A stretch of 64,000 bases of DNA from Zavarzinia marina (GTDB lineage Bacteria > Pseudomonadota > Alphaproteobacteria > Zavarziniales > Zavarziniaceae), in assembly GCF_021568905.1 (NCBI RefSeq), contig NZ_JAKGSB010000002.1, positions 496,001 to 560,000 on the forward strand, in the 5' to 3' direction. The position numbers and the translations under genes were made by a program. The notes below the pieces were generated by a model. The model saw only the letters and a program-made list of their open reading frames with translations. It did no database searches and was not told the origin of the DNA. Shown here in pieces: positions 19,640 to 46,601 of the stretch. The stretch's first letter is position 1. Every line of letters starts with the position of its first letter.

Positions 19640-21142
19640 TCAGGCGGCTTCCTTGGCCGACGGCGTGGCGAAGGGGGCGGCCTGGCGCGGGCGCGCGAAT
19701 TCCATCACGCCGTCGTCGATCTTGCCGTAGCGCAGCGTGAAAATGTCCAGAATGTAGTTCTGGTACAGTTTCCACGGCCGCTTCGAGCCCTGCTTCGGAA
19801 AATCCGCCAGCGCGCGCTGGACGTAACCCGACGAGAAATCGATGAAGGGTTCCGCCTTCACCTCCGGGTCGGTCAGGCGCGGCGTGGCCTGCTTGTAACC
19901 GTGCCGGTCCATGTGGTTCAGCAGCCGGCACACCCGTTCCGCCGTCAGGTCGGCCTTCAGGGTCCAGGAGGCATTGGTATAGCCGAAGGCGGTGACCAGA
20001 TTGGGCAGGTCCGAATACATCATGCCGCGATAGTTGAAGAGTTCGGACTGCACCATCGGCTTGCCGTCGACCGAAAGCGCCATGCCGCCGAGGAACAGCA
20101 GCTTCAGGCCGGTCGCGGAGACGATGATGTCCGCCTCCAACTCCTCGCCCGACTTCAGCTTGATGCCGGTCTCGGTGAAGGTCTCGATATGATCGGTCGC
20201 GACCGAGGCCTTGCCCTGGCGCAGCATCTTGAACATGTCGCCGTCCGGCACCAGGCAGACGCGCTGGTCCCAGGGGTTATAGGACGGCGTGAAATGCTTC
20301 TCGACGTCGAAATCGGGGCCGAGCTGCTTCCTGATCAGGTCGATGATCTTGGCCTTCACCTTGGCCGGGCGGCGGCGCGAAAGCTGGAAGAACAGCATGC
20401 CCAGCAGCACATTCTTCCACCGCGTGATGCCGTAGGACAGTTTGGCCGGCAGGTTGCGGTTCATCCAATTGGCCAGCCCATCCTCGCCCGGGCGGGTGAT
20501 GACATAGGTCGGCGAGCGCTGAAGCATGGTGACATGGGCGGCGGTCTTCGCCATTTCGGGCACCAGGGTGACGGCGGTCGCGCCGGAGCCGATGATGACC
20601 ACCTTCTTGTCGGCGTAGTCCAGATCCTCCGGCCAGTGCTGGGGATGGACGAAACGGCCCTGGAAACGCTCCCGCCCCGGAAATTCCGGCGTGAAGCCTT
20701 CGTCGTAATTGTAATAGCCGCTGCAGCCGTAGAGGAAATTGCAGGAGAAGCGGACGGTCTCGCCCGTTTCCGCCGTCTCGGCCTCCACGGTCCAGGCCGC
20801 GTCTTCCGACGACCAGGACGCCCGCTTCACCTTGAGGCCATAGCGGATGCGTTCGGCGATGTGGTTTTCCTTGGCGACGTCGGTCATGTAGCGAAGGATC
20901 GAGGGACCGTCGGCGATCGCCTTCTTGTCCATCCACGGCTTGAAGGAATAGCCGAGAGTATACATGTCCGAATCCGAGCGGATGCCGGGATAGCGGAACA
21001 GATCCCAGGTGCCGCCGAGGCGCGGCCGCGATTCGAGCAGAAGGAAGCTCTTGCCGGGGCAATTGGCCTTCAGGTGATAGGCGGCGCCAATGCCAGACAG
21101 GCCGGCGCCCACGATCAATACGTCGACATGCTCGATCGGCAT
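19640..21142 (-). CDS. Flavin-containing Baeyer-Villiger-type monooxygenase
   Basis: A 500-residue class B flavoprotein monooxygenase that uses FAD and NADPH to insert oxygen into ketones or oxidise heteroatoms. FAD motif GAGLSG (12-17), the BVMO fingerprint F160-x-G-x-x-x-H166-x-x-x-W170-P, and the NADPH motif GSGATA (185-190) are all present. ATG 21142 is preferred to 21148 because GAGGGG sits six bases before it. It lies downstream of, and on the same strand as, a MalT-like LuxR regulator. Substrate is unknown; relatives next to alkane genes process ketones from subterminal oxidation. Confidence 0.9.
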   Translation of the reverse strand: MPIEHVDVLIVGAGLSGIGAAYHLKANCPGKSFLLLESRPRLGGTWDLFRYPGIRSDSDMYTLGYSFKPWMDKKAIADGPSILRYMTDVAKENHIAERIRYGLKVKRASWSSEDAAWTVEAETAETGETVRFSCNFLYGCSGYYNYDEGFTPEFPGRERFQGRFVHPQHWPEDLDYADKKVVIIGSGATAVTLVPEMAKTAAHVTMLQRSPTYVITRPGEDGLANWMNRNLPAKLSYGITRWKNVLLGMLFFQLSRRRPAKVKAKIIDLIRKQLGPDFDVEKHFTPSYNPWDQRVCLVPDGDMFKMLRQGKASVATDHIETFTETGIKLKSGEELEADIIVSATGLKLLFLGGMALSVDGKPMVQSELFNYRGMMYSDLPNLVTAFGYTNASWTLKADLTAERVCRLLNHMDRHGYKQATPRLTDPEVKAEPFIDFSSGYVQRALADFPKQGSKRPWKLYQNYILDIFTLRYGKIDDGVMEFARPRQAAPFATPSAKEAA

Positions 21143-21291
21143 TCTCATCCCCTCAATCGCTCCGGCGGTTCCCACGTCGGTGGTTCCGCGGTTGTGGCGG
21201 CGCGTCGGCCCCTGCGGACAGAGGCCGAGCGGCACTATGGCATATTCTTGTCAGTCGACAAAGAAAATCGCTGAAGCCGGCACAGCCACGC

Positions 21292-23934
21292 TCAGTGCAG
21301 AAGCCCGCTCTGTCGCGCGATCTGCACCGCATGGGTGCGGTTCCTGGCATTCAGCTTACGCGTGATATTGCGCATATGCCATTTCACCGTTTCCTCGGAG
21401 AGGACGAGGGCGGCGGCGATGTCGCGATTGGTGAGACCCTGCGAAATGAGGTTGAGGACGTGGCTCTCGCGGTGGGAGAGACCATTGGCACCGGTCGGCG
21501 TCGGCGCTTCGGGCATGACGAAGGGCACCGCGGATCCCGCCTGTTCCGAGAGTGGCGCCAGCAGATAGTCCTCGTCGATGATGGCGCGGCGCAGTCCCGC
21601 CTGGGCGGCGGTGAGGCGCGCCTGGGTGGCGAGCCGCCGGCTCTCGGTCTTGTCGCCGTTCTGCCATTGCGCGGCCGCGAGCAGGCAGAGTGCCGAAATC
21701 TCCAGCCGGACATGGCCGGTGGAACGCACCCGGTTCAACAGCGCATTGGCGAGGCGCGCGGCCCGCTGCCCTTCCCCGCGCGACAGCACGAGGCGGGCCT
21801 GGGTCAATTGCCGCATCTCCAGGGAAGCGATGAACTCCTCTGGCGTCGCCAGCGACAGGCCCATCTCCTCGTCGACACGCCAGGCTTCCTCGTTGCGGCC
21901 GAGGCGCAGCAGCAATGTCGCCATCTCGCCCCCCAGCAGATCGACCAGCCGGGGCAGGCCGAAGCGCTCCGCGATGGCGATGGAGCGGCGGATGATGTCG
22001 AGCGCCCGGTCCGGTTCGTCCGCGGCCACGGCAAGGCGCGACAGCAGGCGGGTCGCGGTCTCGCCCAACTCGATGGTGACATGGCCGAGAACCGCCTCCC
22101 CCGCCTCGAGCAGGGCACGGCGCGCCTCTTCCAGGCGGTTGGATTCGTAATGGGCCTCGGCCGCACAGATCGCCAGCAGTTCGCGCACGAGGCCGTCGGG
22201 GCGAAGCGGCGAGGTCCGGCATTCGACCGCGTCGGTGACGATGGTGACGACATCCGCGAGCCGGCCCTCGGTCATAGCGATCCGGGCGCGCACGACCTGA
22301 TTCCAGCCGAACGAATAGGGCGAGCCGGATTCGGCCACCATCTCCTCTGCCTCTTCCGTCAGGCGCCGGGCCTCGCGGATGCGGCCGAGCGCGAGCACCG
22401 CATAGGCGGAGGCGATGAGGATCGAGCCGCGTTCGAAGGGGCCGCTGTTCTCCCAGCGTCGCTCGTAGTTGCGATAGAATTTCACCGCGGCCTGATATTG
22501 GTCGGAGGTGGCGAGGCTGATGCCCCGGATCATGTCGCAGACGGCGCGGGTGTCGCGCGCCTCGACCTCGGAGATCGCGCCGCGTTCGAGCCCGGACTCG
22601 ATCGAATCCTCGACCTCCGCCAGCAGCTTGTCCGCGTCCGCCAGACCGTGGCGGAAGGTGAAGGCCCAGGCGAGGCCGATCTTCAGCGACGGATGGCGGT
22701 CCAGGATCTCGCGCGGCATGTTGGCCATCCAGCGCTGCACCATCTCCAGCTCGCCCCGGCGCAGTGCGATATCGGCGACATGATCGGAGGCCATGGCGGC
22801 GGCAGCGGCATATTCGCCGGCGCGCAGCGCGTGTTCGACCGCCATCTCCACCTCGCCCGCGTCGTGGAACCAGCGACACGCCGTGGACAGGATCTGGCGC
22901 CGGGCGCCCGGCCGGTCGATCTCCAGCCGCGATTCCAGGAATTCGCGGAACAGGGCGTGATATTTGAACCAGCGCCGCTGGCGGTCCAGCGGGATCAGCA
23001 GCAGATGCCGGGTCTCGATCTCCTCCAGAAGGGCGCGGCTGTTCTCGTGACCCGTGAGCAGGGTGCAGAGTTCGGGCGAGAACATGTCGAGCGGCGAAGT
23101 GGCGAGCAGCAGGTCGCGCACCGGCGGCGATTGCAAGTCGAGGGTGACTTCGCAGAGATAGCGCGAGACCTCGACGTCCGTGCCCGAGAATTCCTCGACG
23201 AAGGCGCCGGGATTCTGGCTCGCCTCGAGGGCGAGGCCGGCCATCTGCAGCATGGCGACCCAGCCGCCGGCACGATGGCGCAGCTTCTCGCACTCCTCGG
23301 GCCCGAGCGTACGGCCGCAGATGTTCTCGAGCAGGGCCCGCGACTCGTCCTCGCTGAAGGCGAGATCGCTGTCCTGGAGGCGCATGACGGCACCCGACAG
23401 GCGCGCCTTGGCCATGGCGAGCGGCAGGGCGATGCGGCTGCTGATCACCACCTGCAACCCTTCGGGCGCGCCGGCGATGAGACGTCCCACGGCACGCTGG
23501 ATGGCGCCATTGGCCAGCAGGTGAAAATCGTCGATGAAGAGCACCGCCGGATCATGAGCGAATTCGCGCGACAGCAGGAAATCGACCACGGATTCGAGAT
23601 CGGCCAGTTCGGTCGAGCCGAAGACCACCGACTTGCGGCACAACAGGCGGCAGGCACCGACCACGAGGGATGCGAAGCGTCTCGGTTCGTCATCGGTGGC
23701 GTCGAGGGAAATCCAGGCCGTCCGCCAGCCCTGGCCGCTGCGGATTTCGAGCCATTGGCGCATCACCGTCGACTTGCCGTAGCCAGGCGGCGCCTCCAGG
23801 ACGATGGCCTGGACGTCCGCCGCCTCGGTCAGCAGGCGGTCCATCAAGGCTTCCCGCCGCACGGTCCAATTGCGCAAGGGCGCCGGCCGCAATTTGGCCG
23901 ACCGGGCGAGTGAAGGCATTTCGTCCTTCGCCAT
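21292..23934 (-). CDS. MalT/LAL-type LuxR family transcriptional regulator
   Basis: An 880-residue ATP-dependent activator. Walker A is APPGYGKST (48-56) and Walker B is LFIDD (132-136), together forming the STAND ATPase. A long TPR-like helical sensor region follows (about 330-800), then a C-terminal LuxR HTH: LSHRESHVLNLISQGLTNRDIAAALVLSEETVKWHMRN, read as consecutive helices. These proteins bind inducer in the sensor region and oligomerise on DNA. It faces the DUF1302 operon end and precedes the BVMO gene, so it is the best local candidate to control the hydrophobic-substrate island. That link is inferred from position only. Confidence 0.93.
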   Translation of the reverse strand: MAKDEMPSLARSAKLRPAPLRNWTVRREALMDRLLTEAADVQAIVLEAPPGYGKSTVMRQWLEIRSGQGWRTAWISLDATDDEPRRFASLVVGACRLLCRKSVVFGSTELADLESVVDFLLSREFAHDPAVLFIDDFHLLANGAIQRAVGRLIAGAPEGLQVVISSRIALPLAMAKARLSGAVMRLQDSDLAFSEDESRALLENICGRTLGPEECEKLRHRAGGWVAMLQMAGLALEASQNPGAFVEEFSGTDVEVSRYLCEVTLDLQSPPVRDLLLATSPLDMFSPELCTLLTGHENSRALLEEIETRHLLLIPLDRQRRWFKYHALFREFLESRLEIDRPGARRQILSTACRWFHDAGEVEMAVEHALRAGEYAAAAAMASDHVADIALRRGELEMVQRWMANMPREILDRHPSLKIGLAWAFTFRHGLADADKLLAEVEDSIESGLERGAISEVEARDTRAVCDMIRGISLATSDQYQAAVKFYRNYERRWENSGPFERGSILIASAYAVLALGRIREARRLTEEAEEMVAESGSPYSFGWNQVVRARIAMTEGRLADVVTIVTDAVECRTSPLRPDGLVRELLAICAAEAHYESNRLEEARRALLEAGEAVLGHVTIELGETATRLLSRLAVAADEPDRALDIIRRSIAIAERFGLPRLVDLLGGEMATLLLRLGRNEEAWRVDEEMGLSLATPEEFIASLEMRQLTQARLVLSRGEGQRAARLANALLNRVRSTGHVRLEISALCLLAAAQWQNGDKTESRRLATQARLTAAQAGLRRAIIDEDYLLAPLSEQAGSAVPFVMPEAPTPTGANGLSHRESHVLNLISQGLTNRDIAAALVLSEETVKWHMRNITRKLNARNRTHAVQIARQSGLLH

Positions 23935-24248: not shown

Positions 24249-26159
24249 TCAGAACTGGTAGGTCACACGCATCGAAATTTCATCGGCATAGTCGACGACG
24301 GTAAGGGCGCTGCGGCCCTGTTCCGGCGCCGAGATGACGGTCGCATAGAGGTTGACTTCCCATTTGTCGTTGGGCTTCCAGCGGATGCCCGGCTGGAACA
24401 GGAAGCCGCCATCGATTTCATAGAGCACCGCCCATTCGAATTTCCATTCCAGGGAGGGCGAAGGCTGGAAACCGGCGAAGGCGACCGCGGCCGAATAATC
24501 GACGCCGGTCGGCGTCGTGGTCGAGGTCGAATTGTAACCCGACAGATGGCGGGTTTCAACATCGAAGATGTCGGAACCGTTCTTGTACATGAACTGCAGC
24601 ACGAGATAGGCGGCCGGAAATTCCTGGCTCCAGCGGTGCCACTTCTCGAACACCGCGGCGAAGGCCCATTGGTCTTCCTTGATGAAGTCCTGGCCCAGCG
24701 TCGGGTTGGTGAAGGTCCGGTCCGGGGTATAGGTCATCTCGACGCGGGCGATGAGCTGTTCGAGGAACGAACCCGGCTCGCCGTCGAAGACATAGTTCAC
24801 GCTGGCGCCGAACACGTTCTCGTAAGGGTAGACGCGTTCGATATGGCCGCGCAGACCGCCCGACAGCCAGAAGAAGGTGTCGAGTTCGCCACGCGCGAGC
24901 GCGTCGCTGTCACCGACGTTATAGGCGGTCACCGCGCCGGTGGCCGGCTGGAAGTCGTCGATCGCGGCATTGAGGCCCTGGGTGCCGTGGAGCCGGACCG
25001 AATTGGAGTACCAATACCATTCCTCCTGGCTCTTCACGCCGTTCTCCTGGTCGACCTCGAACGGGGTTTCGGCCATGGTCGCGCCGGAACCAGGCAGCAC
25101 AGGCAGGTCCTTGTTCACGCCCGACTTGGTCCAGCGGAGGACGCCATGCGGATTGTGGCGGGAAACCGCGATGAACTGCAGGCCGAGATTGCCGAGCTGG
25201 GCACGGACGCGACCGCCGACATTCCACAGGTCGTCGGCGATGCCGTCGTAGCGATCGTGCACCGTGAACTGCTCGGGCACCACGTTGTAGGGCGTCGACG
25301 GATTGGGATAGAGCGTGGGCTCGAACTTCTGGATGAAACCTTCGACTTCCCATTCGGAACTGATCTGATAGGACGCGCGGACGCCGAGGGCGGGAACGCG
25401 CTTGTCGGAATATTCCTCGATCGCCGGTTCGAAGATAAAGTGGCGCCGATAATCGAGGCCGGCGGGCACGTCCATGACGCGGAAGAAGATCGCCTCGCCC
25501 CAGGCGATCTGCTGGTTGCCGGCGCGAACGAACAGCGGACCGTTGATGTAGTCGACCGTCGCCACCGGCAGGTCGATCATGTAGTCGTCCTGGGCGTATT
25601 CGAGCGGCGTGCCGCCACCGCCGTCGCGCTTCTGGGTCTCGAAGAAATCGGTATCGGCATTGTCGTCATAGGCGTTCCAGTCGTAATAGCCGCGGACGGT
25701 CAGCCGGGCGCTCCAGTTCGCGTTGATGGCGGCGGCCATGTTGACCTCGACCCTGGTCGCCATCAGGTTGAACTTGTTGTCTGCCGTGCGGACGTCACGA
25801 AAGCCCGTGGGTGGCAGGGTCAACGCCTTGCCGAAAAGGGGCTGCGTGAGGTCGGTCAGCGCCGGCAGACCGACCGTGGACAGCAGGTTGTTGACGCCCG
25901 CGACCGTGCTCAGGTCGAGGCCCACCGGCTCGAGTGGAACCTCCTCGCCGTTGAACGGGTTACCATGGTTGTTGGCCTGGTTTTCCTTGTCGCTCAGCTT
26001 GATCGCGATCTCGTGGCGGATGAAGCCCGAGATGGAAAAATCGATCGCCAGCGCCGGCCCGACAGCCCCCGCCAGGGCGCCGCTCAACATGCCGCCGCAA
26101 GCGACCACGGCCACATTGCGAACGGCGTTGCCGCGCCGTCCCTGCTTCTTCCTCGTCAT
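24249..26159 (-). CDS. DUF1302 family outer-membrane protein
   Basis: A 636-residue beta-barrel-type protein. ATG 26159 follows AGGGGGAG and gives a basic N-terminus and an Ala/Gly hydrophobic signal ending ALA-ID. The mature chain is rich in alternating aromatic strands and ends in MRVTYQF, with the C-terminal Phe of the outer-membrane insertion signal. DUF1302 proteins occur with DUF1329 and MMPL proteins in clusters for sterol, terpene and aromatic or aliphatic hydrocarbon use. A role as a channel for hydrophobic compounds is inferred, not proven. It is the last gene of a four-gene minus-strand operon. Confidence 0.88.
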   Translation of the reverse strand: MTRKKQGRRGNAVRNVAVVACGGMLSGALAGAVGPALAIDFSISGFIRHEIAIKLSDKENQANNHGNPFNGEEVPLEPVGLDLSTVAGVNNLLSTVGLPALTDLTQPLFGKALTLPPTGFRDVRTADNKFNLMATRVEVNMAAAINANWSARLTVRGYYDWNAYDDNADTDFFETQKRDGGGGTPLEYAQDDYMIDLPVATVDYINGPLFVRAGNQQIAWGEAIFFRVMDVPAGLDYRRHFIFEPAIEEYSDKRVPALGVRASYQISSEWEVEGFIQKFEPTLYPNPSTPYNVVPEQFTVHDRYDGIADDLWNVGGRVRAQLGNLGLQFIAVSRHNPHGVLRWTKSGVNKDLPVLPGSGATMAETPFEVDQENGVKSQEEWYWYSNSVRLHGTQGLNAAIDDFQPATGAVTAYNVGDSDALARGELDTFFWLSGGLRGHIERVYPYENVFGASVNYVFDGEPGSFLEQLIARVEMTYTPDRTFTNPTLGQDFIKEDQWAFAAVFEKWHRWSQEFPAAYLVLQFMYKNGSDIFDVETRHLSGYNSTSTTTPTGVDYSAAVAFAGFQPSPSLEWKFEWAVLYEIDGGFLFQPGIRWKPNDKWEVNLYATVISAPEQGRSALTVVDYADEISMRVTYQF

Positions 26160-26220
26160 GCGCTCCCCCTCTGTGCCCATGCTTTCGCTTATTGATGTTT
26201 TCTCTGTTGCGGCCGCCGCC

Positions 26221-27213
26221 TCAGTCGTGCTTGACCGAGACGATCCGACCGGTGTGACCCGCGACGAGCCAGGAGCCACCCTGGCCGGCGAGGGCCGGCT
26301 GATACCAAGTCGTGGCGACGTCGCCGGCGTCGATGGCGGTCATGCGACCGCTGTCGTCCGTGCCTTGCAGCATGGTGCGGATGCCGGTCACCAGGATCCG
26401 CCCCTTGCCGTCGCGCGCGATGCCGAGGAGATTGGCCTCGGTGCCGCTTTCGACCGGCGACCAGGTGAGCCCGTTGTCGCGCGTGCGCAGCACGGCGCCC
26501 TTCTGGCCGACCGCATAGCCGACCCCATGGGCGTCGATGCGGATGTCGAAGAGCGATGCCTCGCCGATATTGACCACGTCCCAATTGGCGCCGCCGTCGG
26601 TCGAGCGCAGGATCATGGCGAATTCGCCGACCACGGTCATGGTGCCGTCGGCATCGATGCTGGCGGCATAGACATGGGGCTCGAAGCCCTGGTCGTTGGT
26701 GCGCGACCAGTCCATTTCGGCCTTGCGCCAGGTCTTGCCGGCATCGTCCGAGATCAGGATGGTGCCGAAGGCGCCGACCGCGATCGCCCTGCCGGAGTCA
26801 TTCATGTCGACGGAGAAGAGGCGGGCGTCGGTGCCGGGATCGACATGCGCCCAGCCGTCGGCATCGTGCCGGAGAACCACGCCCATCTGGCCGACCACGA
26901 TGGCGACGGGCCCCTTCAGCACGCAACCGAGCAGGGCCCGGTCGCTCTGGATGTCGGTCACCCGGTCCCAGGTCGCGCCCTGATCCTTGCTGGTGAACAA
27001 CAGGTTGGGCACGCCCGCGGCGATCTGCTCCGAACCCTGGCTCGCGAGGCAGTAGATCGCCTCATGGGTGGTGCCCTGGCGAACCGCCTCGAGACTATAG
27101 CCGCCACCGGCCGGCGCACTGCCCGCCGAGGCGCCGCCGCCGGCAAACATCATGGCGCCTGCCAAGAGCATGGCCGCCATCGGCCTCGCCGCCACTCCGT
27201 TCCCTGACTTCAT
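26221..27213 (-). CDS. Periplasmic YCF48/BNR-type propeller protein
   Basis: A 330-residue exported protein with a signal peptide (residues 1-30, ending GASAG). It carries repeated blades with the S-x-D-x-G-x-T-W box, for example TSKDQGATWDRV, SDDAGKTWRKA, STDGGANWDVV and TRDNGLTWSPV. That is the Asp-box/YCF48 (HCF136-like) propeller. HCF136 is an assembly factor for a membrane complex, and here the protein may assemble or gate the MMPL/DUF1302 machinery. The start ATG 27213 is close to the previous gene's stop, 69 bases away. The family and export are firm, the function inferred. Confidence 0.85.
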   Translation of the reverse strand: MKSGNGVAARPMAAMLLAGAMMFAGGGASAGSAPAGGGYSLEAVRQGTTHEAIYCLASQGSEQIAAGVPNLLFTSKDQGATWDRVTDIQSDRALLGCVLKGPVAIVVGQMGVVLRHDADGWAHVDPGTDARLFSVDMNDSGRAIAVGAFGTILISDDAGKTWRKAEMDWSRTNDQGFEPHVYAASIDADGTMTVVGEFAMILRSTDGGANWDVVNIGEASLFDIRIDAHGVGYAVGQKGAVLRTRDNGLTWSPVESGTEANLLGIARDGKGRILVTGIRTMLQGTDDSGRMTAIDAGDVATTWYQPALAGQGGSWLVAGHTGRIVSVKHD

Positions 27214-27282
27214 GTTCCGTCCCCTGGATCTTCGGACCGGCGGCAGGTCGCCGCCGGTCCCGTTTCTTTTTCGTGCTTCGGG

Positions 27283-28662
27283 TCAGGCGCCGAGACGGCG
27301 GATGGCCTGGATGGTCAGGAACTGATCGTGGATCCCGTCACCCTGGTTGAAGCCGGACTCGTAGCCGCCCGTGATCTTCTTCGCCTTCAGCGCACGGCTC
27401 ATCCGGTTCGACTGGATGTCGTGGCAGGTGAAGTGGCCCCACGACCAATGGACGTGATCGCCATCCATGACCTTGGTGTTCGGGGTCTCGTAGAGCGAGA
27501 ACGCCGGCTCGAACGACTTCCACATCTCACCGCGACGGTCGTAGGTCAGATAGGCGACGAACATCATGTTGCGGGTGTCGATGTAGACGCGCTTCTTGCC
27601 GACCGGGGCACGGGGGTAACCGGTCGGTTCGCATTCGACCACCAGCACCTCGGGGCAGAGCTCCATGTTGGAGAGCCAGAAGGTCTGGTCGCCGGGGCCG
27701 CCGTGGGCCGGCTTCTCCCAGTTCGGATCGTCGCCCGCCCAGTTCTCGGAGACGGCGCCGAGGTGCGGCTTGGTCTCGATCACCTTGTAGTTGCCCCACG
27801 TCAGCATCGGATCGCCCGCCGCCCAGGCGTCGGACAGGAAGATGGTGACGCCCGGCACCAGCGGCTCGAAGCGCTGGTTGGTCGGGAACCGGCGTTCGCG
27901 CTTGAAGGCCGGCAGATAGCCGAACAGATCCGGGAACTGGGTCTGGTCGTAGTACCATTCATTGAGGAAGGAGGTCCCCCGCACGTCGTTCGGCGAGGTG
28001 AACCAGACCGACTGATAGCGATTGCGGTCCTTCTTGCCCTGCCAATAGGGGCCGTCCGGGTTGTTGAGGAGACCGATGGTGTTCTGTTCGCACCAGGCGA
28101 AGTCGTACTGATAGGACACGGAGCCGCTCGGCGAAATGTCCCAGTCCTTCACGGCGTAGAGGGTCTGGTCGTGACGCCCCCACGACAGGGTGATGTTGGC
28201 GAAGGCCTGCAGACCGTCCTTGGCGTCCGGGAAGGGATTGCCGCCGATCCAGGGATCGCCGCCGTCGATCACCACGTTGCCGGTCGAGTCGAGCTTCGCC
28301 TTGCCGGCGTTGCGCAGGGTCGCCTCGAGATAGTCGTGCGGGAACATGCGCGTTACATCCGTCGTGGTCTTCACGATGCGGATCTTGCGGCCCATGTCCT
28401 TGACCTGCTTGTAGGCGATGTCGTCCAGGAGGTCCTTGACGACGTCGACGTTGTTGGCGTCGATCATGTCGCCCGTCTTGATCTTGCCCTTGGTGTAGGC
28501 CTCGATCGACAGCAGTTCCTCCGGATAGACCTTGGAGATGTCGGCAGAGCGCGCGATCTCGGGCCACAGGCTGGTCAGCATGCCGAGCGACAGGCCGGCC
28601 TGCGCGCTCTTGTTCATGAACTGACGGCGGGTGTAGTCCTTGCCGAACTTCAGGATATGCAT
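27283..28662 (-). CDS. DUF1329 family exported protein
   Basis: A 459-residue protein with a Tat-like N-terminus (YTRRQFMNKSAQAGLSLGML) and an ADI-type cleavage region. The body has the DUF1329 pattern: YPEELLSIEAYTKGK, GGNPFPDAKDGLQAF, RGTSFLNEWYYDQTQFPDLFGYLP and GYPRAPVGKKRVYID. The fold is LolA/LolB-like, made to carry lipids across the periplasm. It sits between the MMPL pump (39 bases away) and YCF48. A paralog with the same length and high identity lies at 43.5 kb. Likely a periplasmic carrier of hydrophobic ligands between MMPL and DUF1302 proteins; this is inferred. Confidence 0.88.
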   Translation of the reverse strand: MHILKFGKDYTRRQFMNKSAQAGLSLGMLTSLWPEIARSADISKVYPEELLSIEAYTKGKIKTGDMIDANNVDVVKDLLDDIAYKQVKDMGRKIRIVKTTTDVTRMFPHDYLEATLRNAGKAKLDSTGNVVIDGGDPWIGGNPFPDAKDGLQAFANITLSWGRHDQTLYAVKDWDISPSGSVSYQYDFAWCEQNTIGLLNNPDGPYWQGKKDRNRYQSVWFTSPNDVRGTSFLNEWYYDQTQFPDLFGYLPAFKRERRFPTNQRFEPLVPGVTIFLSDAWAAGDPMLTWGNYKVIETKPHLGAVSENWAGDDPNWEKPAHGGPGDQTFWLSNMELCPEVLVVECEPTGYPRAPVGKKRVYIDTRNMMFVAYLTYDRRGEMWKSFEPAFSLYETPNTKVMDGDHVHWSWGHFTCHDIQSNRMSRALKAKKITGGYESGFNQGDGIHDQFLTIQAIRRLGA

Positions 28663-28701
28663 CTTCTTCCTCCCGATGAACTCGTGTGACGTCCTGGCCG
28701 C

Positions 28702-31152
28702 TTATTGGGCAGCGGCCATGGTCTTCATTTCGGCCTCTTCCATGGCGCGGCCTTCGGTGTATTGGCTGAGATCGACGGATTCCCCGACCAGCAGGTCGTC
28801 GCGGGTGACGAAATAGGGCTTCGCCAGCCAGACCAGCAGCGGCACCACGACGATGGAGAGCACCATGTTGATGGTCATGACCATCACCAGGAGCAGGCCC
28901 ATGTCGGCGAGGAACTTCAGGTCAGACAGGAAGTACCAGGGCAGGATGCCGATCGCGACGATGGACGCGGTGAACAGGATCGCCTTGCCCGTGGTCATGA
29001 TCGCGGCCCGGATCGCCGTGTCGTAGTGCTTGGTCGCCTGATATTCCTCGCAGATGCGGGACAGCAGGTAGATGCCGTAGTCGATGCCGACGCCGATGCC
29101 GATCGCCGCGATGGGCAGGGTGTTGACGTCGAGGCCGATGCCCATCTCCACCATCGCCGCGCCCAGGTAGAGATTGGCGAGGTTGACGGGGATCAGCAGG
29201 AAGAAGCCCGCAACGATGGAACGGTAGGCGATCGAGCAGCCGACCAGGATGACGATGTTGAGGGCGCCCAGGATGACGTATTCATACTGCGCGACCGTGT
29301 CGTTGATCGACTGCTGGAGCGCGATGGTGCCGGTGGCGAGGCGCACCCGGAATTCCGGATGGTCCGCGCCGACCAGTTCGACCGCCCGCCGCGCCTGGTC
29401 GAGCGCTAGGTCGACCGTCTCCTGCTTGTTGTTCTTGTACCAGAGCGAGACCGTGGTGTTCTGCTGCTCGAAGTCGGTCACATGCAGGAACGCCTTGGGG
29501 CTGGTGCCGAAGAGCACGGCGCCGACGGCCGCCAATGTGGCCTCGTTGGTGGGATCCAGCGGCGCCCATTTCGGATTGCCACCCGCGAACAGACGGTTTG
29601 CTTCCGGCAGGTAGTCCGAGAAGGAGAGCGTCGCTTCCGGCGGGTTCTCCATATGCTCCAGCGCGTATTGGATCCGCGACATGGTCTGGATGGTTTCCGC
29701 CTGACGCGCCACGCGGCTCGGATTGATGGGATCCTTTGCCTCGAGCACGATCTCCAGGGTGTTCACGCCCGGGAAATTGCGGTTGATGGCGGCGACGGCG
29801 GTGTTGAACTCGCCGTCCTCCCACAGGATGTTCGAGCCTTCGACGGGGTTGCCGATCTTCATCTGCAGGAACTCGTAGACCGAGACGCCGGTGATGATCA
29901 GGAAGACGACGGTGGTGACGCGCGCCGCGCGGCCGTAGGTGACCTTGGCGATATGGCCGAGGAAACGCTTCAGCGCCGCGTGGAAGCCGTGATCGCCGTC
30001 CATGCCGGTGATCTTGCGCACGTTCTTCGGCGCCGGCAGGAAGGACAGGATCAGCGGCGACAGGAACACGTTCGCGGGCACCAGCATGGCCGCCCAGAAG
30101 CCGCAGAACAGCGCGAAGCGTTCCATGGCCGGGATCGGCGCCAGCGCGATCAGCAGGAGCCCCGCGGCATCGGTGAAGATGCCGAGCATGGAGGGCGCCA
30201 TCATGACCGACAGCGCGATCTCGGCCGCCTTACGCTTGTCGCCGACGTGCAGATAGATCTCGTAATAGCGTTCCGTGAACTGCACGCAGTGGCTGAACGA
30301 GCGCGCCACCAGCAAGAGCGGCACGACCATGATCAGCGGCTCGATCGCCAGTCCCAGCCAGCCGACGAAGCCGAAACCCCAGATGGCGGCGATCAGCGAG
30401 GTGGTGATCGGCGTGATCACGCCCGCGAAATTGCGCATGTAGAGGATCAGGCAGGCGAGCAGGGCGATGCCGGTCAGGGCGAAGATGCCGAGCATCTGCT
30501 GCTGATAGCGGTAGACCCAGCCGGTCAGGGCCGGCATGCCCGCCATATGCACTTCATGGTGTTCGTCGCGGGCGTTCTCGACCAGACCCTGCAGATATTC
30601 GAAGGTCTCGCCATAGTCGAGCAGGCGCTCGATGAAGGTCGCCGTGATGATGGTCGCGGTGCCGTCCTCCGAGATGTAGAAGCGCCGCGCCAGCGGCGCC
30701 TTGTCCACCCGGCGGCGGAATTCCTCGACATCCTCGGGACCCGACGGCGGGGCGTCGCCCATCACCGGCTGGGTATCGATGCCGAAGGGCGTGGCCTCGG
30801 CATAGCGGACCTTTTCGGTCGAAATCGAGATCACCTGATCATGGTCGACGGCGGGCGCCAGATCGACGTCGCGGGTCAGGTCCCAGATCTTGTTCAGGGT
30901 CTCGACGTTGTAGATGTCGCCGTCGGTCCGCTTGACCATGATGGTGACGGTCAAGGGATTGCCGAAGTTCGGGTGGTCCTTGAAGGTCTCGACGAAGGGA
31001 TGATCCGCCGGCAGCAGGTCGGAGAAGATGGTCTTCAGTTCGACGTTGCGGCAGCCCCAGGCGAAGAAAGCGGTGATGAGCGCAATGACCAGAACCGAAA
31101 GCTTCCGGTTCGACATGACGGCGCGGGAAAGTCTGTAGCTGAAATTCTGCAC
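28702..31152 (-). CDS. MMPL/RND-family hydrophobic-substrate transporter
   Basis: An 816-residue inner-membrane protein with RND topology: one TM helix at 15-34, a periplasmic domain, a five- to six-helix block (about 215-370), a second TM start at about 400-425, another periplasmic domain, and a closing helix block (about 625-790). Family motifs such as GIGVGIDYGIYLLSRICEEY and TDAAGLLLIALAPIPAM are present. It begins at GTG 31152, the first gene of the operon. MMPL and HpnN-like relatives move lipids, hopanoids and sterols, so substrate uptake or envelope lipid traffic is likely. Energy would come from proton flux. Confidence 0.9.
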   Translation of the reverse strand: MQNFSYRLSRAVMSNRKLSVLVIALITAFFAWGCRNVELKTIFSDLLPADHPFVETFKDHPNFGNPLTVTIMVKRTDGDIYNVETLNKIWDLTRDVDLAPAVDHDQVISISTEKVRYAEATPFGIDTQPVMGDAPPSGPEDVEEFRRRVDKAPLARRFYISEDGTATIITATFIERLLDYGETFEYLQGLVENARDEHHEVHMAGMPALTGWVYRYQQQMLGIFALTGIALLACLILYMRNFAGVITPITTSLIAAIWGFGFVGWLGLAIEPLIMVVPLLLVARSFSHCVQFTERYYEIYLHVGDKRKAAEIALSVMMAPSMLGIFTDAAGLLLIALAPIPAMERFALFCGFWAAMLVPANVFLSPLILSFLPAPKNVRKITGMDGDHGFHAALKRFLGHIAKVTYGRAARVTTVVFLIITGVSVYEFLQMKIGNPVEGSNILWEDGEFNTAVAAINRNFPGVNTLEIVLEAKDPINPSRVARQAETIQTMSRIQYALEHMENPPEATLSFSDYLPEANRLFAGGNPKWAPLDPTNEATLAAVGAVLFGTSPKAFLHVTDFEQQNTTVSLWYKNNKQETVDLALDQARRAVELVGADHPEFRVRLATGTIALQQSINDTVAQYEYVILGALNIVILVGCSIAYRSIVAGFFLLIPVNLANLYLGAAMVEMGIGLDVNTLPIAAIGIGVGIDYGIYLLSRICEEYQATKHYDTAIRAAIMTTGKAILFTASIVAIGILPWYFLSDLKFLADMGLLLVMVMTINMVLSIVVVPLLVWLAKPYFVTRDDLLVGESVDLSQYTEGRAMEEAEMKTMAAAQ

Positions 31153-31623: not shown

Positions 31624-33226
<1,603 letters not shown>

Positions 33227-34984: not shown

Positions 34985-35113
34985 GGTTCGCTCCCTCTCG
35001 CGCATTCTCTTTCGGCGTTCCGCCATTTTTGCACCCTTATCTGGTACCGCTCCGGGCCGGCAATGACCAGCACCCAGAATTGGGGGGTGGCGGCGGGCCC
35101 GGACGCCCGTCAT

Positions 35114-35127: not shown

Positions 35128-35143
35128 TACGAGGAGGAACGTG

Positions 35144-36988
35144 ATGGACGCCGCCGAAAACGGGGATTGGGGCCTGGTCGCCGCGCTCAGGGCCGACGAA
35201 CGCCTGCGCGAACTGCATCGCCTGCCGCTGCTGCCGGTGCCGACGATCGCCCTGATGGCGGGCTGCTTCCTCGTCTACGGCCTCTCGTGCTGGGCGTTCC
35301 TGGGCGGCTATCTGCCGGCGCTGGCGACGATCCCGATCGGCGCCGTGGCGATCTACGTCTCCTTCACGCCGCTCCATGACGGCACCCATCGCGCGGTCTC
35401 GCGCAATCCGGTGATCAACGACATCCTGGGCACCCTGTCGGGCCAGATCCTGCTGCCCGGCGTCAGCGTCGAGGTCTATCGCCACCTCCACCTCGAACAC
35501 CACAAGGTGACCGGCGAGCACGGCGACGATCCCGACGACTTCCTGACCGGACCGAAGTGGCGCTCGCTGCCGCTCGGCATGTTCACCGACATCGTCTGGT
35601 TCTTCTGGTACGTGAAGCGTTTCCGCCAGTGGACGCCGCGCCAGAACGCGCGCTTCACCTTCAGCTTCGCCCTGTTCTTCCTGTGGCACGTGGCCTGGAT
35701 CGCCTCGCCCTATGCCATGGAATGGGTGCTGGTCTGGGTGCTGCCGCAGCGTCTCGGCTTCGGCATCCTCACCTATCTCTTCGCCCATATCCAGCATCCG
35801 CCGGGCGTCGAGCAGCACGATCATCCCCTGCATGCGACGGTGATGATCGAGCGTCACCCCCTGGTGCTCTTCGCCATGCTGGGACAGAGCGCGCATCTGA
35901 TCCACCACCTCTATCCGCAGCTGCCGTTCTATCGCCTGGAGGCGGGCTGGGATGCCGTCGGCGACCGCCTGAAGGCGCGCGACATCCGTTTCCAGGGCCT
36001 CCTGAAACCGCGAAAGCCCGTCGATCTCGAAGCCCTGCATCCCTGGATGTGGCTGCGCGTCGCCGCCGTCGAGGACATCGCCGTCGACATCCGCCGCTTT
36101 CGCCTGGCGCCGCCGGCGGGCGGCCCCCTGCCCGCCTATGAGGCCGGCGCCCATGTCGACATCCGCCTGGCCGACGGCACCATCCGGCAATATTCCCTGA
36201 TCGGCCCGCCGGGCCGGCCCGATGCCTATGAGATCGCGGTGCGCCGCGATCCCAAGGGCCGGGGCGGTTCCGTCGCCGTGCACCGCGAACTGCGCGAAGG
36301 CGTGCTGATCGAAGTCGGCAAGCCGCGCAACAACTTCCCCCTGCGGCCGGGTGCCGGGCGCATCATCCTGATCGGCGGCGGCATCGGCGTGACGCCCCTC
36401 CTGTCCATGGCCGCCGCCCTGAAGGGCCGGGATTTCGCCCTGCACATCCATGCGCGCGGCACCGGCCACGTGCCCTTCGGCGCCGGCCTGGAGCGTTTCC
36501 CCTTCGCCGAGCGGATCCGCCTGCATCTCGACAACGGGCGCGGCCCCTCGGCCGAGGCGCTGGCGCGCGACATCGGCCGCCACAAGGCGGGCGACACGAT
36601 CTATCTCTGCGGCCCGGCGCCCTTCATGACCCTGGTCGGGGAGGTCGCGGCCGGCCTCGGCTGGCCGGCGGAAGCGGTGGTGACGGAGAGCTTCGCGCCC
36701 GGCGACGACCGGCCGAAGCCCGCCTTCACGGTCGAACTGGCGCGCAGCGGCCGCCGCCTCGAGGTGGCGGAGAACCAGACCCTGACCGAGGCCCTGGCCG
36801 AGGCCGGCGCACCGGTCGAGACGCTGTGCCGGCGCGGGCTGTGCGGCACCTGCCGCTGCCGCGTCGTGACCGGCACGATCGATCACCGCGACACGGTGCT
36901 GGACGATGCCGAACGGGCGGGCGGCAAGACGATGATGGCCTGCGTCTCACGCGGGACGCCGGACGACGTGCTGGTCCTCGATCTCTGA
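35144..36988 (+). CDS. Membrane di-iron desaturase/hydroxylase fused to flavin reductase and ferredoxin
   Basis: A 614-residue single-chain oxygenase. Residues 1-300 are a fatty-acid-desaturase-family membrane domain with three His boxes: H78DGTH82, H116LEHH120 and H251LIHH255. Residues 303-525 are a ferredoxin-NAD(P)H reductase module (RQYSL 348-352 flavin motif, GGGIGVTP 411-418, CGP 489-491). Residues 527-614 are a plant-type [2Fe-2S] ferredoxin with C562, C567, C570 and C600, the order seen in phthalate dioxygenase reductase. GGAGG six bases before ATG 35144 sets the start. All electron-transfer parts are therefore in one protein. Substrate is unknown; alkanes, fatty acids or terpenoids fit the neighbourhood. 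Confidence 0.93.
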   Translation: MDAAENGDWGLVAALRADERLRELHRLPLLPVPTIALMAGCFLVYGLSCWAFLGGYLPALATIPIGAVAIYVSFTPLHDGTHRAVSRNPVINDILGTLSGQILLPGVSVEVYRHLHLEHHKVTGEHGDDPDDFLTGPKWRSLPLGMFTDIVWFFWYVKRFRQWTPRQNARFTFSFALFFLWHVAWIASPYAMEWVLVWVLPQRLGFGILTYLFAHIQHPPGVEQHDHPLHATVMIERHPLVLFAMLGQSAHLIHHLYPQLPFYRLEAGWDAVGDRLKARDIRFQGLLKPRKPVDLEALHPWMWLRVAAVEDIAVDIRRFRLAPPAGGPLPAYEAGAHVDIRLADGTIRQYSLIGPPGRPDAYEIAVRRDPKGRGGSVAVHRELREGVLIEVGKPRNNFPLRPGAGRIILIGGGIGVTPLLSMAAALKGRDFALHIHARGTGHVPFGAGLERFPFAERIRLHLDNGRGPSAEALARDIGRHKAGDTIYLCGPAPFMTLVGEVAAGLGWPAEAVVTESFAPGDDRPKPAFTVELARSGRRLEVAENQTLTEALAEAGAPVETLCRRGLCGTCRCRVVTGTIDHRDTVLDDAERAGGKTMMACVSRGTPDDVLVLDL

Positions 36989-43483: not shown

Positions 43484-44860
43484 TCAGTACCCCCGGCGTT
43501 GCAGGGCCGACTGGGTCAGATAGGCGTCGTAGATGTCGGGATCGTTCACGCGCATGACGTCGCCGCTGTCGAGGCGCGGGCGCTGTTCGAGGCGGGTCAT
43601 GGTCCGCGTCTGGGTGTTGAAGGCATGGATATGCGACCACGACCAATAGGGATGGGCGCCGTCCATGACCTTGTTGGTGCCGTCGTCATAGAGCGAATAG
43701 GCACCGTCGAAGGAGCGGAAGGGCTGGCCGCGCCGATCGAAGCTGACCATGGAGACGGGCAGCATGGTGCGCAGGTCGAAGCGCACCCATTTCTTCGAGA
43801 TCGGCGCCCGCGGATAGCCGGTCGGCTCGGATTCGACGACGATGGTCTGGGGCACCAGCTCGACCGCGGTATCGAAGAAGGTCAGGCCCTTCGGCCCGCC
43901 GTGGGTCTTGCGCGTCCAGTCGGGATCGGCGCCCGACCAATTGTCCGCCAGGGGCGCCAGGAACGGCCCGGTCGCCACCACCTTGCAGTTGCCCCAGGTC
44001 AGATAGGGATCGCCCGCCGCCCAGGCATCCGACAGATAGAGATCGGTGCCCGGCAGCATGGGCTCGAAGCGCTGGTTGGTCGGAAAGCGGCGCACGCGCT
44101 TGAAGGTCGGCACGTAACCGAAGAGGTCCGGGAACTTGCGCTGGTCGTAGTACCAGGTGTTCAGGAAGGAGGTGCCGCGCACGTCGTGGGGCGCCGTGAA
44201 ATAGATCGCCTGGAAGCGCAGCAGATCCTCCTGACCCGGGATATGGGGCTTGGGGTCCATCACCAGGCGGCCGGTCGCCTGCATTTCGGCCCAGGCGCCC
44301 TCGTAGCGATAGCGGATGTCGCCATCGACGCTGACGTCGCATTCGGTGATGACGTAGACCGTCGCGTCGTGCCGGCCCCAGGCCAGGGTCTGGCCCGCCA
44401 TGGCCTCGAAGCCGTCCGTCGTCGCCGGGAAGGGATGGCCGCCGATCCAGGGCGTCCCGTCGTCGGTCACGACGTTGCCGTTGCCGTCGATGCGCGCGCG
44501 ACCCTTGTTGCGCAGGGTCGCCTCCATGTACTCCCAGGGACTGAGGCGCATGATGTCGTGGGTCTCGCGAACGAGGCGCAGGCGCCGCCCCATCTCGCGG
44601 ATCTGGGTGACCTGGATCGGGTCCAGGAGATCGGCGACCAGATCGACGTTCTCCGCCGAGATTTCCTGACCCGGTGCCAGCTTACCCTTGGTATATTCCT
44701 CGATCGAGAGGAGTTCGTCCGGATAGGCGGCGTCGGCGCTGCCGGTCGCCGCCAGGGCGTCCCACAGCGGCATGAGCACGCCGGCGGTCACGCAGCCGCG
44801 TGCCGCCTGACCCAGGAAGTGCCGGCGCGTGAAGCCCCGGCCGAACCGCCCGACATGCAT
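43484..44860 (-). CDS. DUF1329 family exported protein, second copy
   Basis: A 458-residue paralog of the protein at 27.3-28.7 kb. It shares the Tat-like start (FTRRHFLGQAARG), YPDELLSIEEYTKGK, RGTSFLNTWYYDQRKFPDLFGYVP, RRFPTNQRFEPMLPG, SDAWAAGDPYLTWGN and GYPRAPISKKWVR. Likely a periplasmic carrier of lipid-like ligands. It is downstream of an unusual exported protein (gap 33 bases), not of an MMPL pump. Confidence 0.88.
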   Translation of the reverse strand: MHVGRFGRGFTRRHFLGQAARGCVTAGVLMPLWDALAATGSADAAYPDELLSIEEYTKGKLAPGQEISAENVDLVADLLDPIQVTQIREMGRRLRLVRETHDIMRLSPWEYMEATLRNKGRARIDGNGNVVTDDGTPWIGGHPFPATTDGFEAMAGQTLAWGRHDATVYVITECDVSVDGDIRYRYEGAWAEMQATGRLVMDPKPHIPGQEDLLRFQAIYFTAPHDVRGTSFLNTWYYDQRKFPDLFGYVPTFKRVRRFPTNQRFEPMLPGTDLYLSDAWAAGDPYLTWGNCKVVATGPFLAPLADNWSGADPDWTRKTHGGPKGLTFFDTAVELVPQTIVVESEPTGYPRAPISKKWVRFDLRTMLPVSMVSFDRRGQPFRSFDGAYSLYDDGTNKVMDGAHPYWSWSHIHAFNTQTRTMTRLEQRPRLDSGDVMRVNDPDIYDAYLTQSALQRRGY

Positions 44861-44893
44861 GACCCGCCTTTCCCGACTCAGTCCGGCCCCATC

Positions 44894-46243
44894 CTACTCC
44901 AGGCTGGGCAGGCCGGGCAGGCCAAGCGTGCTGCCGAGGCGACCGAGGAGGTCGGTCACGGTCGCCGGATCGGTGATGCCCTCGACGATGCCGGGCAGCA
45001 GCAGACTGCTCACCGCTTCCGGCTGCAGGCTGCCGAGAAGGACATAGGTGCCTTCGGCCGGCAGCAGGTTCAGGAGATCGCCGACCAGCGGGATCGCCGC
45101 CAGCGAATTGTCGCCCGTCGGCAGGTCCCCGACCCGGAGCGTTTCGGGCGAGAGCAGGACCGCGACGCTGCCGGCGAGATCGCCGACGATCGGGATGCCG
45201 TCCAGCGGCGTGCCGGTATCACCCGCCGGCAGAATGCCCGCCAGCAGATTGCCGAGCGGCGCCTGATCGCTGTCTGTCGCCAGCAGGTCGTTCAGCAGAT
45301 CGCCGATCGCGGAGTCGGAGCCGGCGAGGGGGCCTTCGTCGCCGGCGCCGCCCGGCATCTGGGTGGTGGCCGGAATCTCGCCGATGGCGCGGCCCTTGGC
45401 GATCGCGCCGCCGACCTGCGAAATGAAGCGGACACCGTTCGCCGACGGATTGGCGAAGAAATAGTTGGGACGGCCCATGTTGCGGTGCCGGTCCATGAGG
45501 GAGAGGGGGGCTTCCTCCCCGTCCTTGGCGCGGGAATCCTCGCCGCCGGCATAGAGCCGCAGGCCCGCCATGCCGAGGGCGCCGTCCTTGTCGTAGGAAC
45601 CGAGGGCGTAGAAGGCGAAGCCGCTCGCGGCGGACAGCATGAATTCGATTTCCGTATCGGCGCCGACTTCGCCGAGTTCGGTGTAGGAAACCCCCAGCCC
45701 GAAGCGGAAGCTGGGCGCGGCGTAATAGGAGAGACCGAGGCGGCCCATGAAACTGCTGGAGACGATGTCGCCGTCCTGCACGCCGGCCAGGGCCTCGATG
45801 GTCATGTTGTCGATGTAATATTCGGCGATGGCGGCGGCGCCATATTGGGTCTGCTCGTCGATCACCACGCCCGACAGGGCGACACCGATGCTGAAGGCGG
45901 TCGGGTCGCGGAAGAAGAGCTGGGCCGCGCCGCCGTAGAAATCCGTATCGGTGCCGACCATGCCGCCGATGCCGTCGAGCTGGAGGCCCAGATTGTCGCC
46001 GAGCGGCAGGGTCACGGTCGGCGCCAGGCCGTAGAATTCGCCGCTTTCGTCGACGCCGGCGAAGGCATCGAGCTGGAAGCTGCTGCTGGCGACGGCGACG
46101 CTGCCGTCGAAGGCGCCGGCCGGCGCCGCCTGCTGCGCCGAGGCGCCGGAGGCGGCCACGACCGCCGCGCCTCCCATCAGCACCGCGCGCCCTACCAGCG
46201 CCGCGCCCTTGGCCAACGGCCGCATACGGATTCTGTGATTCAT
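44894..46243 (-). CDS. Exported barrel-like protein of unknown family
   Basis: A 449-residue protein. ATG 46243 follows GAGGGG, and an alternative in-frame GTG sits just before it. Signal peptide residues 1-35 end ASAQQ. Residues about 40-260 alternate short strands and Gly/Ala turns (GLAPTVTLPLGDN, GGAAQLFFRDP, LSYYAAPSFRFGLGVSYTELG), like an outer-membrane barrel. The last 170 residues are Leu/Gly/Pro-rich with repeats of IP-I/L-VGDL and GxLLxxLLPAxG. I do not recognise a family. Because DUF1302 barrels also precede DUF1329 carriers, it may be a functional analog. Confidence 0.75.
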   Translation of the reverse strand: MNHRIRMRPLAKGAALVGRAVLMGGAAVVAASGASAQQAAPAGAFDGSVAVASSSFQLDAFAGVDESGEFYGLAPTVTLPLGDNLGLQLDGIGGMVGTDTDFYGGAAQLFFRDPTAFSIGVALSGVVIDEQTQYGAAAIAEYYIDNMTIEALAGVQDGDIVSSSFMGRLGLSYYAAPSFRFGLGVSYTELGEVGADTEIEFMLSAASGFAFYALGSYDKDGALGMAGLRLYAGGEDSRAKDGEEAPLSLMDRHRNMGRPNYFFANPSANGVRFISQVGGAIAKGRAIGEIPATTQMPGGAGDEGPLAGSDSAIGDLLNDLLATDSDQAPLGNLLAGILPAGDTGTPLDGIPIVGDLAGSVAVLLSPETLRVGDLPTGDNSLAAIPLVGDLLNLLPAEGTYVLLGSLQPEAVSSLLLPGIVEGITDPATVTDLLGRLGSTLGLPGLPSLE

Positions 46244-46601
46244 CACGAGCCCCTCGTTTCCACCCCTCGTCGCCACGGACACGCCGGCTTTTCGGCCGTT
46301 TCGCTGGGCGCATGCCCGCGGTCGTCTTGTTTGGAAATTTGATAGCCCGGCCCCCCCACCCCGGCAGCCCACCCGAATGGGAGGGCCACCCAAGAGTTGT
46401 TCCCATTTAGGGAGAGGCGATGGGCCACTTTCCCCCAAATATGGAGCTACTTGCCGCCGAACTCGTTGCATCGCGTCCGGTCATTCGGTTCTTGCCGCCG
46501 CCCTGCCCTGCCCAATCGGCCATTGGCCGGGCCGTTCGGGCGGGCTATAGCCGTGAATGCCCCCCGCTCAACCGCGCCGTCTCGAATGGAAGGACGCCAC
46601 C
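46244..46601. other. Intergenic region between the exported protein and the ALDH gene
   Basis: A 358-bp divergent promoter region if the ALDH starts at 46602. It includes a run of CCCATTTAGGG-type and TTTCCCCC tracts (46400-46440). I see no credible ORF, RNA or strong operator. Confidence 0.4.

Follow-up and report, generated by a model that had tools for sequence, protein, structure and literature searches.

Architecture of the fusion protein

Membrane di-iron hydroxylases and desaturases are awkward to use because they require separate, often unknown, redox partners. The window analysed here, a stretch of 64,000 nucleotides from Zavarzinia marina (contig NZ_JAKGSB010000002.1), contains a gene that raises the question of whether such an enzyme can carry its electron donors in its own chain. 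The gene occupies positions 35144–36988 of the forward strand: an ATG at 35144, closely preceded by a ribosome-binding site (AGGAGG, 35132–35137), opens a reading frame devoid of internal stops, which ends at a stop codon (36986–36988) and encodes a protein of 614 residues (67.7 kDa). The original prediction described this protein as a three-domain single chain (desaturase, flavin reductase and ferredoxin), a description borne out by the reading frame, the Pfam matches and the match to phthalate dioxygenase reductase (PDR) detailed below. Likewise, the three His boxes, the reductase motifs and the four ferredoxin cysteines that it had placed in frame could all be located and are invariant or nearly so.

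The N-terminal part (residues 57–282, positions 35312–35989) matches the FA_desaturase family (PF00487, E-value 1.8e-29) with 103.7 bits for a cut-off of 29.7 and, with its nine invariant histidines and four membrane helices, belongs to this superfamily. The histidines are distributed between (i) box 1, HDGTH (residues 78–82, positions 35375–35389), with H78 and H82; (ii) box 2, HLEHH (residues 116–120, positions 35489–35503), with H116, H119 and H120; (iii) an extra histidine, H218 (positions 35795–35797); and (iv) box 3, HLIHH (residues 251–255, positions 35894–35908), with H251, H254 and H255. The resulting pattern, HX3H, HX2HH and HX2HH plus one additional histidine, is found in all 25 desaturase sequences aligned.

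The C-terminal part comprises PDR-type flavin and NAD(P)H domains (residues 302–525, positions 36047–36718) followed by a plant-type [2Fe-2S] ferredoxin domain (PF00111, Fer2, E-value 1.8e-13; residues 532–603, positions 36737–36952). Residues 302–614 cover PDR (PDB code: 2PIA) over its whole length, with an E-value of 2.2e-56 (6e-57 in a further search), which confirms the PDR-type tail announced by the original prediction; the next structure matches are the PDR tails of the CYP116B-type P450s 6LAA and 6KBH. The sequence signature of the PDR family (RxYS, GGxGxTP and CGP, then a C-terminal CX4CX2C...C) is present in this order, with RQYSL at residues 348–352, RGGS, GGGIGVTP at 411–418, CGP at 489–491 and the cluster ligands at Cys 562, 567, 570 and 600. 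All four cysteines are conserved in the 32 reductase sequences aligned, across which the flavin and NAD motif residues are near-invariant. The fusion thus keeps all the flavin, NAD and [2Fe-2S] motifs of 2PIA, but the latter is a stand-alone soluble protein whereas the PDR module described here is joined to a membrane domain. Homology suggests that this module binds FMN and uses NADH.

An AlphaFold2 model built on 48 sequences, which supersedes an earlier one built on eight (pLDDT 64.5), has a pLDDT of 91.2 and a pTM of 0.75. It displays four long membrane helices (predicted at residues 32–53, 59–81, 165–187 and 191–217), with the His boxes at or past the helix ends, then the PDR fold; the linker (residues 281–300) is modelled with lower certainty. 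In the predicted arrangement, the C-terminal PDR module shares one face of the membrane, presumably the cytosolic one, with the His boxes. The Foldseek matches listed for the PDB are reductases and a search of the PDB with the desaturase profile gave no match, while giant-virus desaturases were matched among viral models.

A conserved genomic island around the fusion gene

Each of the six genomes searched within the genus carries at least one full-length copy of the fusion. The eight copies form two paralogue groups: group A, which comprises the gene at 35144–36988 and copies in four other genomes (G001, G003, G004 and G005), and group B, represented in G002, G004 and G005. The seven other copies encode proteins 56–62% identical to that of the window and contain no internal stop.

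At the five group A loci, the gene order is DUF1302–BNR–DUF1329–MMPL, CYP153–ferredoxin, GMC and fusion. In the window, the first set (24249–31152, reverse strand), identified by Pfam matches and synteny in the five genomes as DUF1302, YCF48/BNR, DUF1329 and MMPL genes, probably represents an envelope and transport set for hydrophobic compounds. It is followed on the forward strand by a cytochrome P450 gene (31408–32886, Pfam p450; true start probably downstream of 31408), whose product we take, from the look of its sequence, to be a CYP153, and by a [2Fe-2S] ferredoxin gene (32906–33226, Pfam Fer2), both found in synteny. Then comes, on the reverse strand, the gene of a GMC oxidoreductase of the alcohol dehydrogenase type (33356 to about 34984, Pfam GMC_oxred_N/C), which diverges from the fusion and is kept in synteny in five genomes with 83–86% identity. 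These coordinates agree with the adjacency to CYP153 and GMC genes noted in the original prediction. Group A fusions are 59–62% identical, most of their island neighbours 73–93% and the BNR gene product 62–67%; since the fusion has diverged further than most of the genes beside it, their linkage is no proof that they serve one pathway.

The spacer between the divergent GMC and fusion genes contains a 24-bp imperfect palindrome, CCAGCACCCAGAATTGGGGGGTGG (35067–35090), recognisable at all five group A loci and with the exact pattern at four of them. It has one match within the window, for 0 expected by chance, and is a candidate operator, possibly for a LuxR-type regulator encoded at 21292–23934. 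This regulator, of the MalT/AlkS type, adjoins a flavin monooxygenase gene, the pair (19640–23934) lying upstream of the DUF1302-to-fusion set; the likeness of these genes to almA and alkS is our own reading, on which they add to the hydrocarbon type of the island. DUF1302, DUF1329 and RND genes have been reported close to an almA-like gene in an oil-isolated Pseudomonas (PMC7145413). Farther along the window, region 43484–46471 contains another DUF1329 gene, which shares 50% identity with that at 27283–28662, and a neighbour encoding 525 residues without Pfam match.

The group B fusions (L074, L075 and L076) lie outside the CYP153 island, directly after a TetR-type gene, a placement that suggests an inducer or a substrate differing from that of group A.

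Proposed activity

The single chain, its cofactor motifs, the conservation of the fusion, the confident fold and the conserved island are all observed. We propose, with a probability of roughly 0.7, that the fusion works as a membrane di-iron oxygenase that draws on NAD(P)H without external redox partners and oxidises a hydrocarbon-like substrate. The notion of a self-sufficient enzyme of this kind, already put forward in the original prediction, appears sound in view of the anatomy, the motifs and the conserved fusion, while chemistry and substrate are what we infer. NAD(P)H would reduce the flavin of the PDR module, and electrons would then pass in single-electron steps through the C-terminal [2Fe-2S] cluster to a di-iron centre, held by the nine putative histidine ligands on the predicted cytosolic side of the four-helix desaturase fold. 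This centre would activate O2 and oxidise a C–H bond of a hydrophobic, membrane-derived substrate, and the resulting alcohol may be oxidised by the divergent GMC enzyme.

Two points lead us to prefer hydroxylation to desaturation: the curated models that come nearest are those of CrtR and GntB, and the GMC neighbour would oxidise alcohols. Both of these models, the best ones for the desaturase domain, describe hydroxylases, but with 78.7 of 475 bits for CrtR and 58.2 of 380 for GntB the matches lie far under the cut-offs and do not fix the chemistry of the fusion. In particular, 78.7 bits for an NCBIfam equivalog cut-off of 475 does not make the protein a CrtR β-carotene hydroxylase. The CrtR/GntB branch of FA_desaturase, in which GntB is an arginine hydroxylase, holds the nearest curated relatives of the N-terminal domain, with the difference that CrtR and GntB are stand-alone and need separate electron donors, whereas the fusion has donor modules in its chain. 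The substrate is probably a hydrocarbon or a related lipid; some members may act on something other than a hydrocarbon, since group B lies beside a TetR gene, outside the hydrocarbon-type island.

The main alternative, clearly less likely but to be taken seriously, is a self-sufficient desaturase, in which the same electron chain would serve to remove two hydrogens from an acyl chain, of a membrane lipid or a fatty acid, without insertion of oxygen. The Pfam family is indeed FA_desaturase and the His motifs are common to desaturases and hydroxylases, but the weak match of the N-terminal domain to a DesA-type desaturase model scores far below those to CrtR and GntB. Moreover, the genome has no fewer than five further FA_desaturase matches that pass the cut-off, one of them next to a separate reductase gene (contig C12), and the neighbours of group A are CYP153, GMC and hydrocarbon-type envelope genes.

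A second alternative, which we consider improbable, is that the reductase tail also or mainly feeds the neighbouring CYP153. In the CYP153 operon of Alcanivorax, arranged as ferredoxin–P450–AlkJ2 (alcohol dehydrogenase)–ferredoxin reductase (PMC6850023), the last gene is the ferredoxin reductase ABO_0203, and here the fusion takes that place, after the GMC gene; no separate ferredoxin reductase was seen within the island. Yet a putidaredoxin-reductase-type gene (PF14759) is found elsewhere in the genome (contig C14) and the group B copies have no CYP153 alongside. Besides, PDR modules bring their own built-in plant-type ferredoxin and do not act as reductases of a separate one, which argues against such a role.

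Conservation and origin of the fusion

That the reading frame is an assembly join or two genes read through, the misassembly by which the original prediction could have failed, is hardly conceivable: nine full-length sequences from seven separate assemblies share an identical junction with purifying selection on both sides, and no evidence supporting such an artefact was found. The ninth sequence comes from a gammaproteobacterium (G852); it is 41% identical over 593 residues and joined at the same place. Ka/Ks ratios for three pairs (0.27–0.31 for the whole gene, 0.18–0.38 within the halves) indicate purifying selection in both halves, and GC content by codon position is coding-like on either side of the desaturase–PDR junction.

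Using the desaturase domain as a query against 385 genomes of Alphaproteobacteria, 399 of Pseudomonadota, 369 of Gammaproteobacteria (three samples that overlap one another) and 397 of Actinomycetota, we found no PDR-type desaturase fusion beyond the genus and G852; the five desaturase matches in the Actinomycetota sample are all unfused. The rarity of the fusion is a statement on these sampled genomes. Viral contigs contained no relative, no plasmid record covered 80% of the query (the matches being separate reductases or separate desaturases), and the phage records among the matches listed are reductase-only. A scan of contigs yielded PDR relatives and P450–PDR fusions but no desaturase fusion; as its queries were mostly reductase peptides, it says little about the absence of desaturase fusions.

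The closest unfused desaturases, in genomes G024 and G253, are 37% identical. Within the flanks examined, no PDR or other reductase gene lies beside them, and no split version of the fusion was found. A tree built from the reductase halves places the nine fusion tails in one clade (support 98/92) and the P450-fused tails in a separate one (100/100). For the desaturase halves, too, the same nine sequences group (89/71), inside a well-supported clade shared with the G024 and G253 proteins (99/98). A second species of the genus of G852 (G964) has a different fusion (L115:1–1863, reverse strand), in which a desaturase of another branch, placed elsewhere in the desaturase tree and away from the nine, is joined to a PaaE-type reductase and to the apparent start of a ferredoxin domain, where the contig ends; it adjoins PPIase, DUF1302 and fatty acid hydroxylase genes. 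The simplest reading of these trees is that fusion occurred once for the nine sequences, once for the P450s and once more for G964.

Relation to known self-sufficient oxygenases

The fusion differs from AlkB hydroxylases, whose boxes are HELXHK, EHXXGHH, NYXEHYG and RHSDHHA instead of HDGTH, HLEHH and HLIHH, and its desaturase domain gave no significant alignment with the AlkB domain encoded in the same genome. CYP116B enzymes (class IV self-sufficient P450s; 6LAA, 6KBH) have the same PDR-type C-terminal module behind an N-terminal oxygenase, but this oxygenase is a soluble haem P450 whereas that of the fusion is a membrane FA_desaturase domain; the protein is therefore not a CYP116B. As the CYP116B tails fall in a separate clade, the fusion to PDR was independent, so that P450s and membrane di-iron enzymes would each have acquired the same tail separately. 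In the AlkB–rubredoxin fusions of Dietzia, Prauserella and Fontimonas (PMC8918992, PMC10113152), an iron-sulfur donor also lies C-terminal to a membrane di-iron hydroxylase, but they belong to the AlkB clade and carry a rubredoxin and no reductase, where the fusion carries a ferredoxin and a reductase and is non-AlkB.

The nearest functional analogue is the three-domain alkane monooxygenase Fd–FNR–AlkB (ferr_ferrR_AlkB; Nie 2014, Williams 2021), which is known and reported active (PMC8918992). Like the 614-residue fusion, it unites a membrane di-iron hydroxylase, a flavin reductase and a [2Fe-2S] ferredoxin in one chain; its ferredoxin and reductase are N-terminal, however, whereas both are C-terminal here. 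With this reversed order and a hydroxylase that is not AlkB, the fusion falls outside that family. The original prediction's candidate for a new enzyme type is new in its domain order, in the clade of its desaturase and in having a reductase of the PDR type, but the term is too strong, since three-domain hydroxylases of the Fd–FNR–AlkB kind were already known (PMC8918992) and one is encoded in this very genome. No published description of the desaturase–PDR architecture was found in the open-licence literature, nor any characterised homologue with this exact architecture, many of which would have undone the claim of novelty, in the literature and genome samples searched.

The fusion is real, conserved and under selection, and apparently represents an undescribed form of self-sufficient oxygenase. 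We lean, with less assurance than for the activity itself, towards regarding this family as the first recognised desaturase-clade membrane oxygenases with a C-terminal PDR, in which a non-AlkB di-iron enzyme would have become self-sufficient in a further, independent event, through gain of a flavin/[2Fe-2S] tail, and which, in the CYP153/GMC island, would act on a hydrocarbon or lipid. A 2022 review (PMC8918992), citing work of 2001, states that desaturases fused to a ferredoxin had not been found, a statement to which the family would be, by sequence, a counter-example. A membrane di-iron enzyme that occurs in nature as a single chain, with a PDR tail that is well understood, would be a ready biocatalyst, as well as a test system for the docking of a [2Fe-2S] domain on a desaturase-type di-iron site.

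The Fd–FNR–AlkB protein of the same genome has 757 residues (L098:3583–5856, reverse strand; contig C10, about 222.1–224.4 kb). Its boxes are HELTHR, EHVYGHH, NYMEHYG and RHSHHHA and its reductase is closest to BenC/MmoC, in contrast to the PDR type of the 614-residue fusion. Two differently built membrane oxygenases of the putative self-sufficient type thus coexist in this genome.
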